This document shows, one piece after another, positions 4,862-55,735 of a stretch of 55,735 nt of DNA. This stretch comes from Spirochaetia bacterium (lineage in GTDB: Bacteria > Spirochaetota > Spirochaetia > Treponematales > Treponemataceae), in contig JALFAW010000088.1 of NCBI GenBank assembly GCA_022773305.1, positions 1 to 55,735 of the forward strand. The letters run 5' to 3'. How positions within the stretch are numbered: position 1 is the first letter of the stretch; each line of letters opens with the position of its first letter. The notes below the pieces were generated by a model. The model did not search any database. It saw only the letters and a program-made list of their open reading frames with translations, and was not told the origin of the DNA. The translations under genes and the position numbers were made by a program.

Positions 4862-6565
4862 TTATTCCTCCATCAACCATGTTCTTATGAGCATTGCAAC
4901 ATCTTCCGGATGTTCTTTTGCCATTGCAATTGCATTTTCCTGAAGTTCCATTCGCCTTGTTTCTTCAACAGACATTGTAACTTCCATACTGTCTTCTTTT
5001 GCATCCCAAAGAGCCCTTTCTCTTGCAGCCTGCTGTTCGGCAAGAAGTCTTGCTTCCCTTTCACGGCGGCGACGTTCAAGTTCACGACTGATAATTCTAA
5101 AGAGGATAAAGCTCACAAGAACAACTGCAATAGCAATCAATATCATCAAGATAGTGCGTTTTCTCTGTAAAGCGGCAAAATATGCATTATCTTCTTGTAA
5201 AAATTCATCATCTCTATCGTATGCAATATTTGTAACAGCTACCTGGTCACCTCTGCTTCTATCATAGCCCATAGCTGCTTTTATGCTTTTTTCTGCTTCG
5301 GCCATATCTTCTGGAGAAACAGGAGTATATTCACGTTTTATAGAACCGTCTTCAATAATTAAATTACCTTCGTTATCTTTTACTTTTTTCCATTTTCCAT
5401 CCAAGTTTACAGAAACAGAAATTTTATTTGGTTTTGGTGAAGAAATTTCTGTTGTATCTGTTCTATTTTGAACATGATTAATTGTAGTTCCAGTTTCAGT
5501 TGATTTTCCGATAACATTCGACATATCACTATAAACAGGTGGAGTCTGTCCTTCTACACCAGCAGGACCTTCTGGATTGTAACCAGTTCCCTGCCATTCT
5601 TTTGTAACAGTTTGAGTCGAAAGTGGCAATGTATCTCTCAATTCAGAATCATCATAAGGAGTATCTGGATTATCTTCTTTTATTACAATCGGTTTATATT
5701 CTGTTGACTGACTTTGCCGCTGAGACATATCCATTTCCACAGCAACAACCATATCTCGACATCTATCTTCTGTAAATGTTTTTTGCAAAGCCTTCAATAT
5801 TTTTGCACGGATTTCAACTTCAAGCTGACGAATCAATTTCTGCTGCTTTTTTACATTATCAATTCTGTCGCTTTCAGCCATTCCTTCAAAATCATTAATC
5901 TGATTTCCATCTTCATCAGCAATGATAAGATTTTCAGCCTTTAAGCCTTCCACTGCAGATAAAATCAAATCCTGAATGCCTTTAATACGTTTTTTATTTG
6001 TATATAAATCACTGTTGTTCGTGACTTTTAAAATTACACTTGCAGTAACAGGATTTTGATCTTCTTTAAAAAGTTTATCTTCTGGTGAAACAATATTAAC
6101 ATCTGCAACTCTGATATCTGGAATTGTTTCAAGATGCTGCGTAAGCTGCTTTTGCATTGCCTGAAGTTTTTTCACTTTTACATCTTCATCTGTTGTAAAA
6201 ATATCCCTATCAAAAATTCCTGCAAACGGGTCAATATTAGACGGCAAAAGTCCTTCAGTACTTAAAATCGTCCTAAGTTTTCTTGCAGTCACTTCATCAG
6301 ATACATAAATATATCCTCTATCATCAGAATCTGCAGAAATATTTTCTTCTGAAATTCTATCTAAAATTTCGTTAAGTCTGACTGTATCTGTAATTGGAGT
6401 ATTTAAAATGCGATATTGTGTCGGCTTTGCAGAAATGCGTGCCGTTAAAACTATTGCGATGATTACAACTATGATTATGCCAATCAATATGACTTTTTGA
6501 ATTGGTTTCCACTTTGACCACAAATTCTTTATGGAAGTTAAAACCTTTTTAAGCCATTCGTTCAT
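4862..6565 (-). CDS. fliF: Flagellar MS-ring protein FliF
   Basis: Two TM segments, YscJ/FliF domain (Q..QLTQHLETIPDIRVADVNIVSPED), operon position. Confidence 0.95.
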   Translation of the reverse strand: MNEWLKKVLTSIKNLWSKWKPIQKVILIGIIIVVIIAIVLTARISAKPTQYRILNTPITDTVRLNEILDRISEENISADSDDRGYIYVSDEVTARKLRTILSTEGLLPSNIDPFAGIFDRDIFTTDEDVKVKKLQAMQKQLTQHLETIPDIRVADVNIVSPEDKLFKEDQNPVTASVILKVTNNSDLYTNKKRIKGIQDLILSAVEGLKAENLIIADEDGNQINDFEGMAESDRIDNVKKQQKLIRQLEVEIRAKILKALQKTFTEDRCRDMVVAVEMDMSQRQSQSTEYKPIVIKEDNPDTPYDDSELRDTLPLSTQTVTKEWQGTGYNPEGPAGVEGQTPPVYSDMSNVIGKSTETGTTINHVQNRTDTTEISSPKPNKISVSVNLDGKWKKVKDNEGNLIIEDGSIKREYTPVSPEDMAEAEKSIKAAMGYDRSRGDQVAVTNIAYDRDDEFLQEDNAYFAALQRKRTILMILIAIAVVLVSFILFRIISRELERRRREREARLLAEQQAARERALWDAKEDSMEVTMSVEETRRMELQENAIAMAKEHPEDVAMLIRTWLMEE

Positions 6566-6721
6566 CTGTCCCCTCCCGTGAACGAATTTGTTAAAAATCT
6601 AACCGCTTATACAGATAATTTTTAAACAACAATTTTAATAATTATATCATAGAAAAAAAGAATTGACAATTAAAAAGTGGCTACTTTAAAAATAATAATG
6701 AGACAAAAAAAATTATTAATC

Positions 6722-6861
6722 AGGTTCAATTTCGAGTATTTGATTTACAAACCGTGGCAAGGATTGTAAGGGCTGGCGAAGCCAGTTCCGAAGCGGAGCG
6801 AAGGAATGAAGCGATAGCGGAACCCTGAAAAGCCTGTTTTTTGCGAAGCAAAAAGCCACCC
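6722..6861 (+). repeat. Dispersed modular hairpin repeat, copy R1 (between fliE and fliF)
   Basis: AGGTTCAATTTCGAGTATTTGATTTACAAACCGTGGCAAGGATTG...GCCTGTTTTTTGCGAAGCAAAAAGCCACCC; contains CTGGC-GAA-GCCAG and TTTTTTGC-GAA-GCAAAAA; left end identical to copy at 55568. Confidence 0.9.
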
Positions 6862-51852: not shown

Positions 51853-52041
51853 AATTAACAACTCCATATTTATGACAACACAAGGCTTACGAAAATTCCA
51901 CTTTATATAAAAACAAGAAGTGGTAATCCATGAGAAATTGTAAGAATATTTATAGAAGAAAACAATAAGTGAAAACCACCAATTTTGCATGAATCATGCA
52001 CGAGGGAGTGAAATTTTTAATGATTTTAAAAGTTAGGTCTG

Positions 52042-52265
52042 TCCCTAGGGCAAACGCATTATAAAATGATTAGTTGTAATATCTGGCTCCCGGTCGTAAT
52101 TCACAGGTCAAAAACGCGCAATAATGCGCTAGACGTTTTTTGGGGTATAGAAACTATTATAATGCCGCTCTCGCGGCAGCCCCAAAAAAAGTCTTTTTGC
52201 CCTGTGTCTCACTCCCTCGTGCCAACTTTTATGAAAATATTTTTTATAATGCGTTTGCCCTGGGA
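52042..52265. mobile_element. MITE-like non-coding element with about 20-bp TIRs
   Basis: AGGGCAAACGCATTATAAAA ... TTTTATAATGCGTTTGCCCT; nested stems GCCGC-TCTC-GCGGC and CAAAAACG..CGTTTTTTG. Confidence 0.7.
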
Positions 52266-52333
52266 TAACAAACTAGCATTATTGAATAATTATAAGCATA
52301 ATATTTTTTCTATCATGTTTTTCTTCAACATTT

Positions 52334-52439
52334 ATTTCAAAACTGTAACCTTTTTTACTCACTTTTATATTTTTTTATTTCAAAAGTGTAACTATTTTTT
52401 ATTTCTTTAAAAAAAGATTTATTTCAAAACTGTAACTAT
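52334..52439 (+). repeat. Left iteron cluster (3 copies)
   Basis: ATTTCAAAA(C/G)TGTAAC(C/T) at 52334-52350, 52377-52395, 52421-52439. Confidence 0.9.
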
Positions 52440-52782: not shown

Positions 52783-53526
52783 GTGAAATCTTATGCATTT
52801 GCTTTGCAAAAAGGCGGAACTGGAAAAACAAGCATCAGTGTATCACTTGCTGTTGAACTTGCTTCAAAAGGAAAAAAAGTTGTATACATCGACTGCGATC
52901 CTCAGGGAAATTCCAGTTCATGGCTTTTAAACAGTTTTGAACATGAATTGGCTGATATACTTTATGAAAAAGCGCAGGTTTTAGAATGTGTTTATAAATC
53001 AGATGTTGAAAATCTTTATGTAATTCCAACTTTTGGTGTCGGAGGTGAACTAAAAGTCTGGGCAAAAAAAGAAACATATCCTTTTATTTTCCAAAAAAAC
53101 ATTCTCCCTCAGCTTCAAGAACATTTTGACTATTGTATTTTTGATACATCACCTGCTTTTGATGAATTTGAAAAATCAGTTTTTATTGGTTGTGATGAAG
53201 TAGTTCCAGTTTTGAAATTGGATGAATTTTCAAAAGACGGATGGGAAATTTTTACAAAAAATCTTTCTCAAATTGACAAACAATATGGTGTACGTCCTAA
53301 ATATAAAAAAATCATTTTAAATCAGCAGGATAAACGTCTTTCAAATCAAGCTGCATATCTTGAAGCATATAATTCATCTGAAACTTCATTTGAATTTATT
53401 GTAATTCCAAAAGACCCTGCATTTGAAAAAAGTCAAAGTGCGCACACAACTATTCAGGATAAAAGAGTTCGTGCAAAAAAAGAAACTCTAGAATCTATAT
53501 CAAATTTAGCACAGAGGTTAATGTAA
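52783..53526 (+). CDS. parA: ParA-family partition ATPase
   Basis: AFALQKGGTGKTSISVSLAVELASKGKKVVYIDCDPQGNSSSWL deviant Walker A; AAGGAGG upstream of GTG 52783 (listed ORF starts earlier at 52738). Confidence 0.9.
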   Translation: MKSYAFALQKGGTGKTSISVSLAVELASKGKKVVYIDCDPQGNSSSWLLNSFEHELADILYEKAQVLECVYKSDVENLYVIPTFGVGGELKVWAKKETYPFIFQKNILPQLQEHFDYCIFDTSPAFDEFEKSVFIGCDEVVPVLKLDEFSKDGWEIFTKNLSQIDKQYGVRPKYKKIILNQQDKRLSNQAAYLEAYNSSETSFEFIVIPKDPAFEKSQSAHTTIQDKRVRAKKETLESISNLAQRLM

Positions 53527-53882
53527 TGGCAGTACACGAAAAAAACTTATCATTTGCTGAAGAACAAAAGTTGAAAATTGCGGAAAGCGTAAAAAATACT
53601 ACAAGTCTATCTGAAAGTGTAATTCCGGAAAAGAAAGTTGAAGATAACTTGTCTTTCAAAACTGTAACTATTCAATCTTCTGTATCACAGAATTCCAGAA
53701 AAAAAGATGTATTGATTGGAATTCATGTTACAAAAGAAGAACAAACAGAGCTTCGTCAAATGTTTTGCTCAAATGGTTTTTCTCTTGCTACTGCATATAG
53801 AGCAGCAATGACTTATTTGAGACAAGATATTAGTGATGGAAAAGCAATAATTACAAACAATGGTGAAATCTTAAGAAAATAA
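53526..53882 (+). CDS. Small partition/plasmid-associated protein, RHH-like C-terminus
   Basis: ATG overlaps parA stop (TAATG); C-terminal IGIHVTKEEQTELRQMFCSNGFSLATAYRAAMTYLRQ; contains an iteron in its coding sequence. Confidence 0.7.
   Translation: MAVHEKNLSFAEEQKLKIAESVKNTTSLSESVIPEKKVEDNLSFKTVTIQSSVSQNSRKKDVLIGIHVTKEEQTELRQMFCSNGFSLATAYRAAMTYLRQDISDGKAIITNNGEILRK
53654..53670 (+). repeat. Iteron copy inside a CDS
   Basis: TTTCAAAACTGTAACTA exact match to the flanking iterons. Confidence 0.9.
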
Positions 53883-54044
53883 AAAAATCCTTACAAACTT
53901 AAAAATAATGGATATTTTGAAGAAGACGACATATTTCTCGATGGATATCGTTTCAAGCCCGTAGAACCCCTTTTTTGAGCATTTGAGAGGACTTTTTCTT
54001 ATTACCAGAATTTTCAAAAGTTTTTCCTCATAAAGGAGGGTATA

Positions 54045-55034
54045 GTGAAAAAAAACAAAAAAGACCAGAAAAATGAAATAATCTCAGCAGATAATTCTGA
54101 TGCAGAATTATTCAATTTTGATTATAAGCCTGATATAAAACAGTCATTAGCTTATTTGCCAGCTCTTTTTACAACAGCTTCTTTACCTTTCAGAAATGTA
54201 AATAAAACTGTATTTGTACGAAAAGGCACAAAAGGAATTACATTAAAACTTACATCGCCTTTTAATGTACCTTATGGACGTTATGGAAGATTACTTTTAA
54301 GTGTTTTAACTACACATGCAGTAATTAATAAAGGAAAAGGTTCTGGACCTGTGTATATGGAATATGCAAAACTTAGCGATTTATTAAAAGAATTACAATT
54401 ACCAAAAAGTAGAGGACCTGAAATCAAAGAACAACTTGAATGCTTTTCAAACGCAGCATTTTCTTTTACACAAAAGGTTACAGAATTGAAAGCGGGATAT
54501 CTTTTTGAAGATTTATATGATGGAAATTATCCAAAACAAGATATACAAGTAACAACACATACTACCGGAAATATTCGTTTCACAGAAGGAGTTCAATATA
54601 AAGAAGCTGATGATGGAAGTGGTGATAAAAAAAGTTTTGCTTTTAAAATAGTTTTATCACCAGAGTTTGCAGCATTTTGTCAATCTCACGCAGTTCCTAT
54701 AAATTATACAGTTTACAAAAATATATCTTCTCCAATTGCAAAAGATATTTATGCTTGGCTTGTGTACAGAAATAATTCAATAACAGAACCGTTGTTTATT
54801 CCAAGACATCATCTTGTTGAACAATTTAATCCTGTAGATGATGCAAAAAACGAAAATCAGGAGAATGTAAGTTATTTTAGAATAATCGAATATATTAAAG
54901 AAATAAAAGAAAAGCATTATCCTGAATTAAAGGTAAGTTTTGATAAAACAGGGGAGGGGATTACTCTTTATAAAAGTAAACCTCCTGTTCTAGAAAAAGA
55001 TACAAGATATGCATTAATAACAACTGATATTTAA
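54045..55034 (+). CDS. Plasmid-type replication initiator (RepA, 'plasmid encoded RepA' family-like)
   Basis: GTG start after AAAGGAGGG; PYGRYGRLLLSVLTTHAVINKGKGSGPVYMEYAKLSDLLKELQL and SPIAKDIYAWLVYRNN patterns; flanked by iterons. Confidence 0.8.
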   Translation: MKKNKKDQKNEIISADNSDAELFNFDYKPDIKQSLAYLPALFTTASLPFRNVNKTVFVRKGTKGITLKLTSPFNVPYGRYGRLLLSVLTTHAVINKGKGSGPVYMEYAKLSDLLKELQLPKSRGPEIKEQLECFSNAAFSFTQKVTELKAGYLFEDLYDGNYPKQDIQVTTHTTGNIRFTEGVQYKEADDGSGDKKSFAFKIVLSPEFAAFCQSHAVPINYTVYKNISSPIAKDIYAWLVYRNNSITEPLFIPRHHLVEQFNPVDDAKNENQENVSYFRIIEYIKEIKEKHYPELKVSFDKTGEGITLYKSKPPVLEKDTRYALITTDI

Positions 55035-55078
55035 ATCTTAGAAAAAAAATAGTTACACTTTTGAAAGATTTTATTCAG

Positions 55079-55087: not shown

Positions 55088-55280
55088 TATCCACAATCTC
55101 TATTAATTGTTTAAATATATTAATTGTTAATTAATTGTTTTTATAGAAGATATTTCAAAACTGTAATTATTTATTTCAAAACTGTAACCATAGAAAAATT
55201 TATAAGGTTTCTAAATCTATAAATAACATAAAAATAGGTCCTGAAAAACAGCATTTCAAAAGTGTAACTAAAAAAGTACG

Positions 55281-55304
55281 TTATCCACAAGAAAATGTGG
55301 ATAA
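55281..55304. promoter_or_regulatory. Inverted pair of DnaA boxes
   Basis: TTATCCACA-AGAAAA-TGTGGATAA between two iterons. Confidence 0.75.
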
Positions 55305-55567
55305 CTATTTCAAAAGTGTAACTATTTTAAGAATAAATTTAAGAATAAAAAACTCATAATCTGAATTTCTATAATACTTTAGTTCAGAAAAATTTGAATA
55401 TGATTTCGAATATTGGGAATCATATCAGAAAAAATATAAAAATAATAAAAAGAAGATAATGTTATTTCAAAACTGTAACTAAAAAAAAGCAAACAAACAG
55501 ATTTCCATTTCAAAACTGTAACTATTTATGTTTATTAAAAAATATGTTTTATTTCAAAAGTGTAACT

Positions 55568-55735
55568 AGGTTCAATTTCGAGTATTTGATTTACAAACCG
55601 TGGCAAGGATTGTAAGGGCTGGCGAAGCCAGTTCCGAAGCGGAGCGAAGGAATGAAGGTAGCACGAAGTGCGTACGTAACCCTGAAAAGCGCGAGTTTGC
55701 AATGCAAACTCGGGACGAGAAATGCATAGCATTTC
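55568..55735 (+). repeat. Dispersed modular hairpin repeat, copy R5 (truncated by window end)
   Basis: Left end and first modules identical to R1, then different modules: GCAC-GAA-GTGC, CGAGTTTGC-AAT-GCAAACTCG, GAAATGC-ATA-GCATTTC. Confidence 0.9.

Follow-up and report, generated by a model that had tools for sequence, protein, structure and literature searches.

An own-type iteron inside the coding sequence of a ParG-like gene in Treponema RepA_C cassettes

The incA sites of P1 and the incC sites of F are outlying control iterons. The 39-mers of Vibrio cholerae chromosome 2 also include outlying sites, one of which overlaps the transcribed rctA ORF, and control is exerted by titration and handcuffing (PMC6090056). 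Like the site described here, the outlying sites of P1, F and V. cholerae are initiator-type sites away from the origin, and negative control has been shown for them; they are, however, noncoding or lie in an untranslated ORF, whereas the Treponema site lies inside a translated, conserved gene. Iterons within coding sequence are familiar from the lambdoid phages, in which the initiator-binding iterons lie inside gene O and the extra iterons of Stx phages add residues to the O protein (PMC7466680). In lambda, as here, iterons are part of coding sequence, although there the whole origin (4–6 iterons and an AT-rich tract) is contained in the initiator's own gene. The window (the whole stretch of 55 735 nucleotides that was analysed) instead has one outlying iteron in a partition gene and the main array downstream of repA, with a strand, frame and place that vary among relatives; no complete origin is found within the initiator gene.

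The initiator of the window belongs to the same RepA_C family (PF04796) as those of the PromA-like plasmids, to which it has 25–28% identity, and putative iterons have been described downstream of repA in pSN1216-29 (PMC6232296). The iteron sequence of these RepA_C plasmids (the PromA and pSN1216-29 groups) differs from that of Treponema, and we found no coding-embedded iteron described for them in open-licence papers. The partition genes resemble the ParF–ParG system of TP228, which likewise consists of a ParA-type ATPase followed by a small ribbon-helix-helix (RHH) protein with a flexible N-terminal tail; this tail contacts and stimulates the partner ATPase (PMC7308502). The tail of ParG has ParF-stimulating and repression roles, whereas the Treponema tail additionally carries a candidate DNA site for the initiator. 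The same parA–small gene–repA–iteron cassette is present on pTRESU01, the 165 kb circular plasmid of T. succinifaciens DSM 2489 (NC_015386). An own-type iteron is found there inside WP_013702815.1 (annotated as a hypothetical protein), on the minus strand and encoding NSSVI; both the iteron type and the reading frame differ from those of the window.

Iterons in lambdoid gene O and outlying control iterons in several replicons are already known. A search of the open-licence literature brought up no earlier plasmid iteron within coding sequence, gene O apart, nor a single initiator site in a partition gene that fits the initiator type and reappears in other frames from one member of a plasmid family to the next. 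The family is a clear case in which regulatory DNA and a protein tail share bases and co-evolve, driven by initiator specificity. It also makes copy-number control by outlying iterons testable by synonymous changes alone, and offers a route to the incompatibility types of uncharacterised Treponema plasmids. It carries a warning as well: a short peptide that is conserved in the disordered tail of a plasmid-encoded protein may merely reflect a site in the DNA.

The cassette and its embedded iteron

The genes and iterons of the cassette are given in Table 1, in the order left iterons, parA, small gene, repA and downstream iteron array. The GTG taken as the start of parA is preceded by AAGGAGG, and a longer ORF runs from 52738. 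The downstream array has a geometry that is constant across replicons, with an inverted copy near the repA stop followed by steps of ∼22, 80 and 54 bp. A RepA_C domain in the initiator and a direct-repeat array of constant geometry beside its gene, two marks of an iteron-type RepA_C replicon, are both present.

Table 1. Positions of genes and iterons of the plasmid cassette within the window
Feature	Position	Strand	Basis or remark
Left iteron 1, TTTCAAAACTGTAACCT	52335–52351	+	Mismatch search of window
Left iteron 2, TTTCAAAAGTGTAACTA	52378–52394	+	Mismatch search of window
Left iteron 3, exact 17-mer	52422–52438	+	Mismatch search of window
parA, Walker ATPase, AAA_31/CbiA	52783–53526	+	AAA_31, E = 4.5e-30
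parA-embedded iteron, TTTCAAAACTGGAACTA, 1 mismatch	53201–53217	-	Mismatch search of window
Small gene, ParG-like RHH protein with disordered N-terminal tail (predicted)	53526–53882	+	Profile search and structure model
Small-gene embedded iteron, own-type, SFKTVT, in tail	53654–53670	+	Exact match
repA, initiator, GTG start	54045–55034	+	PF04796 RepA_C, E = 5.8e-11
Downstream array iteron 1, inverted, directly behind repA stop	55050–55066	-	Mismatch search
Downstream array iterons 55153–55169 and 55174–55190	55153–55190	+	21–22 bp pair common across replicons
Downstream array iterons 55254–55270 and 55308–55324	55254–55324	+	54 bp spacing kept across replicons
Downstream array iterons 55465–55481, 55508–55524 and 55552–55568	55465–55568	+	43–44 bp spacing

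The embedded iteron of the small gene is an exact copy of the 17-mer TTTCAAAACTGTAACTA that lies in frame within the 118-codon ORF and encodes SFKTVT(I); a search of the window returned it at the coordinates and in the frame that the original prediction had given. The prediction's distances of 1.2 kb to the nearest left iteron (left iteron 3) and 1.4 kb to the nearest right one (the inverted copy behind repA) are also correct for those two sites, but it had overlooked the copy in parA, which is nearer. Allowing up to three mismatches, the window contains 14 iteron-like matches (0.86 expected), all of them between 52335 and 55568. Across the 3.1 Mb assembly the 15-mer core TTTCAAAASTGTAAC is confined to the window cassette and one truncated second copy, on contig C54. 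The genome's two further RepA loci, on contigs C231 (L085) and C170 (L086), each have a site in the small gene; for L086 the automatic profile locked onto other repeats, and its site (EIKTITK), seen via a different motif only, was left out of the counts below.

The small protein has no Pfam or NCBIfam family match, and Foldseek with its monomer model gave no informative match. A profile built from 11 relatives matches the RHH protein with PDB code 2kel (E = 3.2e-7) and, weakly, ParG (PDB code 1p94; E = 0.18). The structure prediction has helices at residues 70–82 and 87–104 and a pLDDT of 43–55 over residues 21–60, and the embedded site encodes residues 43–48, in the disordered tail. In the aligned cassettes parA overlaps or abuts the small gene. 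The protein looks ParG-like, with an RHH domain behind a disordered N-terminal tail and parA directly upstream.

Recurrence and codon constraint among Treponema replicons

Cassettes of the type parA–small gene–repA were taken from other Treponema genomes and dereplicated at 85% identity of the small protein, which left 47 replicons; most of the sequences are MAG contigs, and the counted replicons are not fully independent despite the dereplication. Those relatives that carry a name belong to Treponema (T. succinifaciens with its plasmid pTRESU01, and MAGs from gut or rumen), and a scan of IMG/VR gave one partial relative. For each replicon a single iteron profile was trained on the noncoding flanks only and then scored on the small gene. 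An own-type site was found in the small gene of 32 of the 47 replicons. The small genes (18.6 kb) hold 34 own-type sites. Shuffling the codon order leads one to expect 0.04, and synonymous shuffling 4.9, the latter figure being conservative because the peptide alone already favours a match. parA and repA hold eight own-type sites each (∼0.2 expected). All of the small-gene sites lie in the tail, N-terminal to the RHH domain. The original prediction had judged a chance match to be very unlikely, and we reject chance as exceedingly improbable: the A+T-rich background speaks for it and nothing more, while none of 400 codon-order shuffles in the window reaches the observed score and the site recurs in the replicons counted above.

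The original prediction had also held that intact homologous cassettes lacking the internal site would speak against it. There are 15 such cassettes among the 47, which tells in part against the prediction. Three of them carry an iteron in the gap ahead of repA instead, and most of the others have sites upstream of parA; the site is favoured but not essential, and can be lost or absent. For the 43 replicons with a readable upstream region, a small-gene site is present in 29 and sites upstream of parA in 30; at least one iteron lies upstream of repA in 40, and three have none. The proposal that the internal site is a fixed anchor joining the left and right clusters does not hold as a general rule, since nine of the 29 site-bearing readable replicons have no left cluster.

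A site just before repA is found in L053, L055–L059, L061, L066–L069 and L155 (from another genus), mostly alongside a small-gene site, and in some replicons sites in the gap between the small gene and repA are 14–48 bp from the repA start. In L149 and L152 this gap is 700 bp long and holds its own iteron cluster before repA, and the internal site is nonetheless kept. Plasmid pTB1 of T. bryantii is without par genes and has an iteron ∼50 bp before repA. The upstream-site counts, the sites before repA and pTB1 together show that an iteron in the RepA-producing operon, or shortly ahead of it, is under favourable selection, on either strand and at varying distance. pTB1 (L119/L161) also has a long iteron array with a strict 42–44 bp period (∼5196–5600 in L119) and another iteron inside repA.

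The sites occur in four strand and frame combinations across the replicons and encode unrelated peptides. Those on the plus strand use one frame and read (F/I)KTVT or QTVT/ETVT/QTGA, and those on the minus strand read SQI[FL]N, SNSFE or SNSSV, or VTNLL. The shared frame and the KTVT- or QTVT/ETVT-like peptides of the plus-strand sites are what would be seen if the (F/I)KTVT peptide were conserved and the DNA match were a mere by-product. We consider this very improbable, as the minus-strand sites encode quite other peptides, the number of sites exceeds that from the synonymous shuffles, and the codons vary with the local iteron (GTA ACT versus GTT ACC); the diversity of strand, frame and peptide excludes a peptide function.

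Codon constraint at the site, for which the original prediction had proposed a test, is evident in the alignment of homologues. Within the clade of the window (the window, L048, L049 and L122) the small gene varies at 80 of 119 codons, and of its 114 six-codon windows SFKTVT alone is fully invariant. In parA of the same clade 132 of 250 codons are variable, and just one of 244 seven-codon windows is invariant: EVVPVLK, the embedded site, whose single mismatch to the iteron falls in a conserved proline codon. A second clade (L057–L059, L061 and L066) has a coding iteron elsewhere in parA (SNNSLK, at about nucleotides 273–288 on the minus strand), and this site has rank 1 of 240 in codon conservation. 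Column-based ranking of this kind breaks down when the site has shifted to another part of the tail, as in the SQI and IKTVT clades. The embedded site of the SQI clade reads GTCACAAAT, where the iteron is mostly GTAACAAAT; this departure sits exactly where the iteron base would create an in-frame TAA stop.

The probable binder and the role of the site

The small genes score much better with their own iteron profile than with swapped profiles (mean 0.62 of the maximum versus 0.195; 0 of 20 000 permutations), and the own profile has a mean rank of 2.7 of 47. The embedded site thus has the same specificity as its replicon while lying outside the origin array, as is the case for an outlying iteron. 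Iteron distance correlates with RepA distance (rank correlation 0.65, and a partial correlation of 0.65 given RHH) more strongly than with ParA (0.48) or RHH distance (0.31). Natural exchanges of the par genes separate the candidates further. L050 and L051 have a RepA (80%) and an iteron of the window type, while their small protein is only 15–17% identical to that of the window and their ParA is different too. L054 and L050 are alike in ParA (90%) and small protein (79%) but differ in RepA (68%) and iteron, and in L063 a RepA and iteron of the L054 type are accompanied by a par pair that is different again. In every one of these swaps it is RepA that the embedded site goes with, which makes RepA the likely binder as judged from covariation. 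The RHH protein is a less likely binder because the iteron follows RepA through the par swaps, although its correlation of 0.31 remains. The internal site was also considered as a recombination hot spot, and this was rejected: the exchange of par genes between the window type and L050 extends past the site and replaces the RHH domain downstream of it, which places the junction elsewhere.

The frame changes, the par swaps and the codon invariance each count as evidence in their own right. From these sequence comparisons the 17-mer is almost certainly a member of the RepA-type iteron family that is kept by selection at the DNA level, and the claim of a selected initiator site inside the gene has strong backing in the covariation with RepA-type iterons, the codon invariance and the alternative frames and strands. 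Because it stays matched to the initiator of each plasmid while the surrounding protein drifts, the site very probably has a working control function within the gene. The roles that the original prediction had suggested, as a roadblock, an autoregulator or a handcuffing site, would be plausible. As a whole, we find the best explanation, to which we give rather better than an even chance, to be an outlying RepA control site that gives negative feedback on repA expression and on origin firing. We infer that RepA would bind the embedded iteron and that this would serve as an outlying control site of the parA–parG–repA operon. RepA bound inside the operon would contact RepA molecules on the array that follows repA. 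The resulting loop, with the small gene at one end and the array at the other, would enclose repA, lower the transcription that reaches it and restrain the origin. Rising RepA or copy number would then lead to falling initiator level and initiation. Its placement in a gene may reflect the compactness of the operon, in which often no more than 1–60 bp separate the small gene from repA, and the tolerance of the protein tail. Single sites that are free in orientation and distance would fit RepA–RepA bridging better than a phased operator. That the site acts mainly through a bridge or loop that exerts negative feedback is put forward tentatively, at a little under an even chance. Counting against the best explanation are the 15 of 47 cassettes without a small-gene site, the three of 43 replicons without any iteron upstream of repA, a promoter signal near the site that is no stronger than chance, and the fact that a single iteron is unlike the inverted-repeat operator typical of repressor dimers. 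L149 and L152, moreover, fit poorly with control of read-through into repA alone.

Site-bound RepA might limit repA without looping, as a roadblock to RNA polymerase coming from the parA promoter. The position of the site within the operon, past the parA promoter region but ahead of repA, would suit this, as would the freedom of orientation and the gap sites close to the repA start in some replicons. A single bound initiator would be a weak block, however, the parG mRNA would be cut too, and L149 and L152 keep their internal site despite the iteron cluster before repA; we regard a roadblock as rather unlikely. A promoter overlapping the site was rejected, as a promoter scan near the site gave background numbers (15 found versus 18.9 expected).

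The persistence of the internal site in L149 and L152, where repA is distant, would suit a coupling of replication to partition, in which RepA at the site would act on the par operon (the dosage of parA and parG) or on the partition complex and not on repA. The small par gene has the strongest enrichment of coding sites, and in two clades no codon window of parA is more constrained than the one at its embedded site. Against this, the iteron type tracks RepA and not ParA or the RHH protein, and pTB1 has its iteron just upstream of repA yet no par genes, so that coupling as the role of the site seems to us unlikely. Simple titration, with the site merely adding RepA-binding capacity without a positional role in the manner of outlying incompatibility iterons, would agree with the additional iterons that 30 of 43 replicons have ahead of parA and with the titration and handcuffing of initiators by outlying iterons in known replicons (PMC6090056). 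One site beside the 8–15 of the array would hardly raise the capacity, whereas no other codon window is as constrained, and its placement in small genes is far from random; titration is distinctly improbable.

To return to the control site that we favour, a broader statement of it is that an initiator-binding control element resides in the disordered ParG tail (in two clades also in parA) and is re-created in whichever strand and frame the protein permits as RepA specificity changes, the partition coding sequence doubling as a switch for copy number or for coupling replication to partition. We consider this form evenly balanced between being right and being wrong.

Surroundings of the cassette

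The plasmid cassette forms the end of the contig (52269–55735), and the genes over positions 1–52000 of the window are chromosomal (FliF–FliI, HslU, FtsZ/A/Q/W, MurF, TopA, DprA, CheA and others). This points either to a chromosomally integrated cassette or to a chimeric MAG contig; the cassettes of relatives are on circular plasmids (for example pTRESU01) or on contigs of ∼130–220 kb. At the junction between chromosomal genes and cassette a long inverted repeat can be made out by eye at ∼51996–52265 (GCACGAGGGAGTG ... AGGGCAAACGCATTATAAAA and the complement), which looks like a MITE-like element or a junction. The homology of the window with contig C54 (L015, G000:C54) begins at 52269; positions 6348–6809 of this contig carry a copy of the left iteron region that is 90.6% identical, and the contig ends just before parA. 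This suggests another related replicon or a strain variant. The gap of ∼160 bp between the small gene and repA (53883–54044) contains short self-complementary stretches by eye. At the contig end, positions 55568–55657 are a perfect 90 bp repeat of 6722–6811, with related copies near 23.9, 30.5, 31.9 and 47.7 kb, and this is a dispersed REP-like intergenic repeat.
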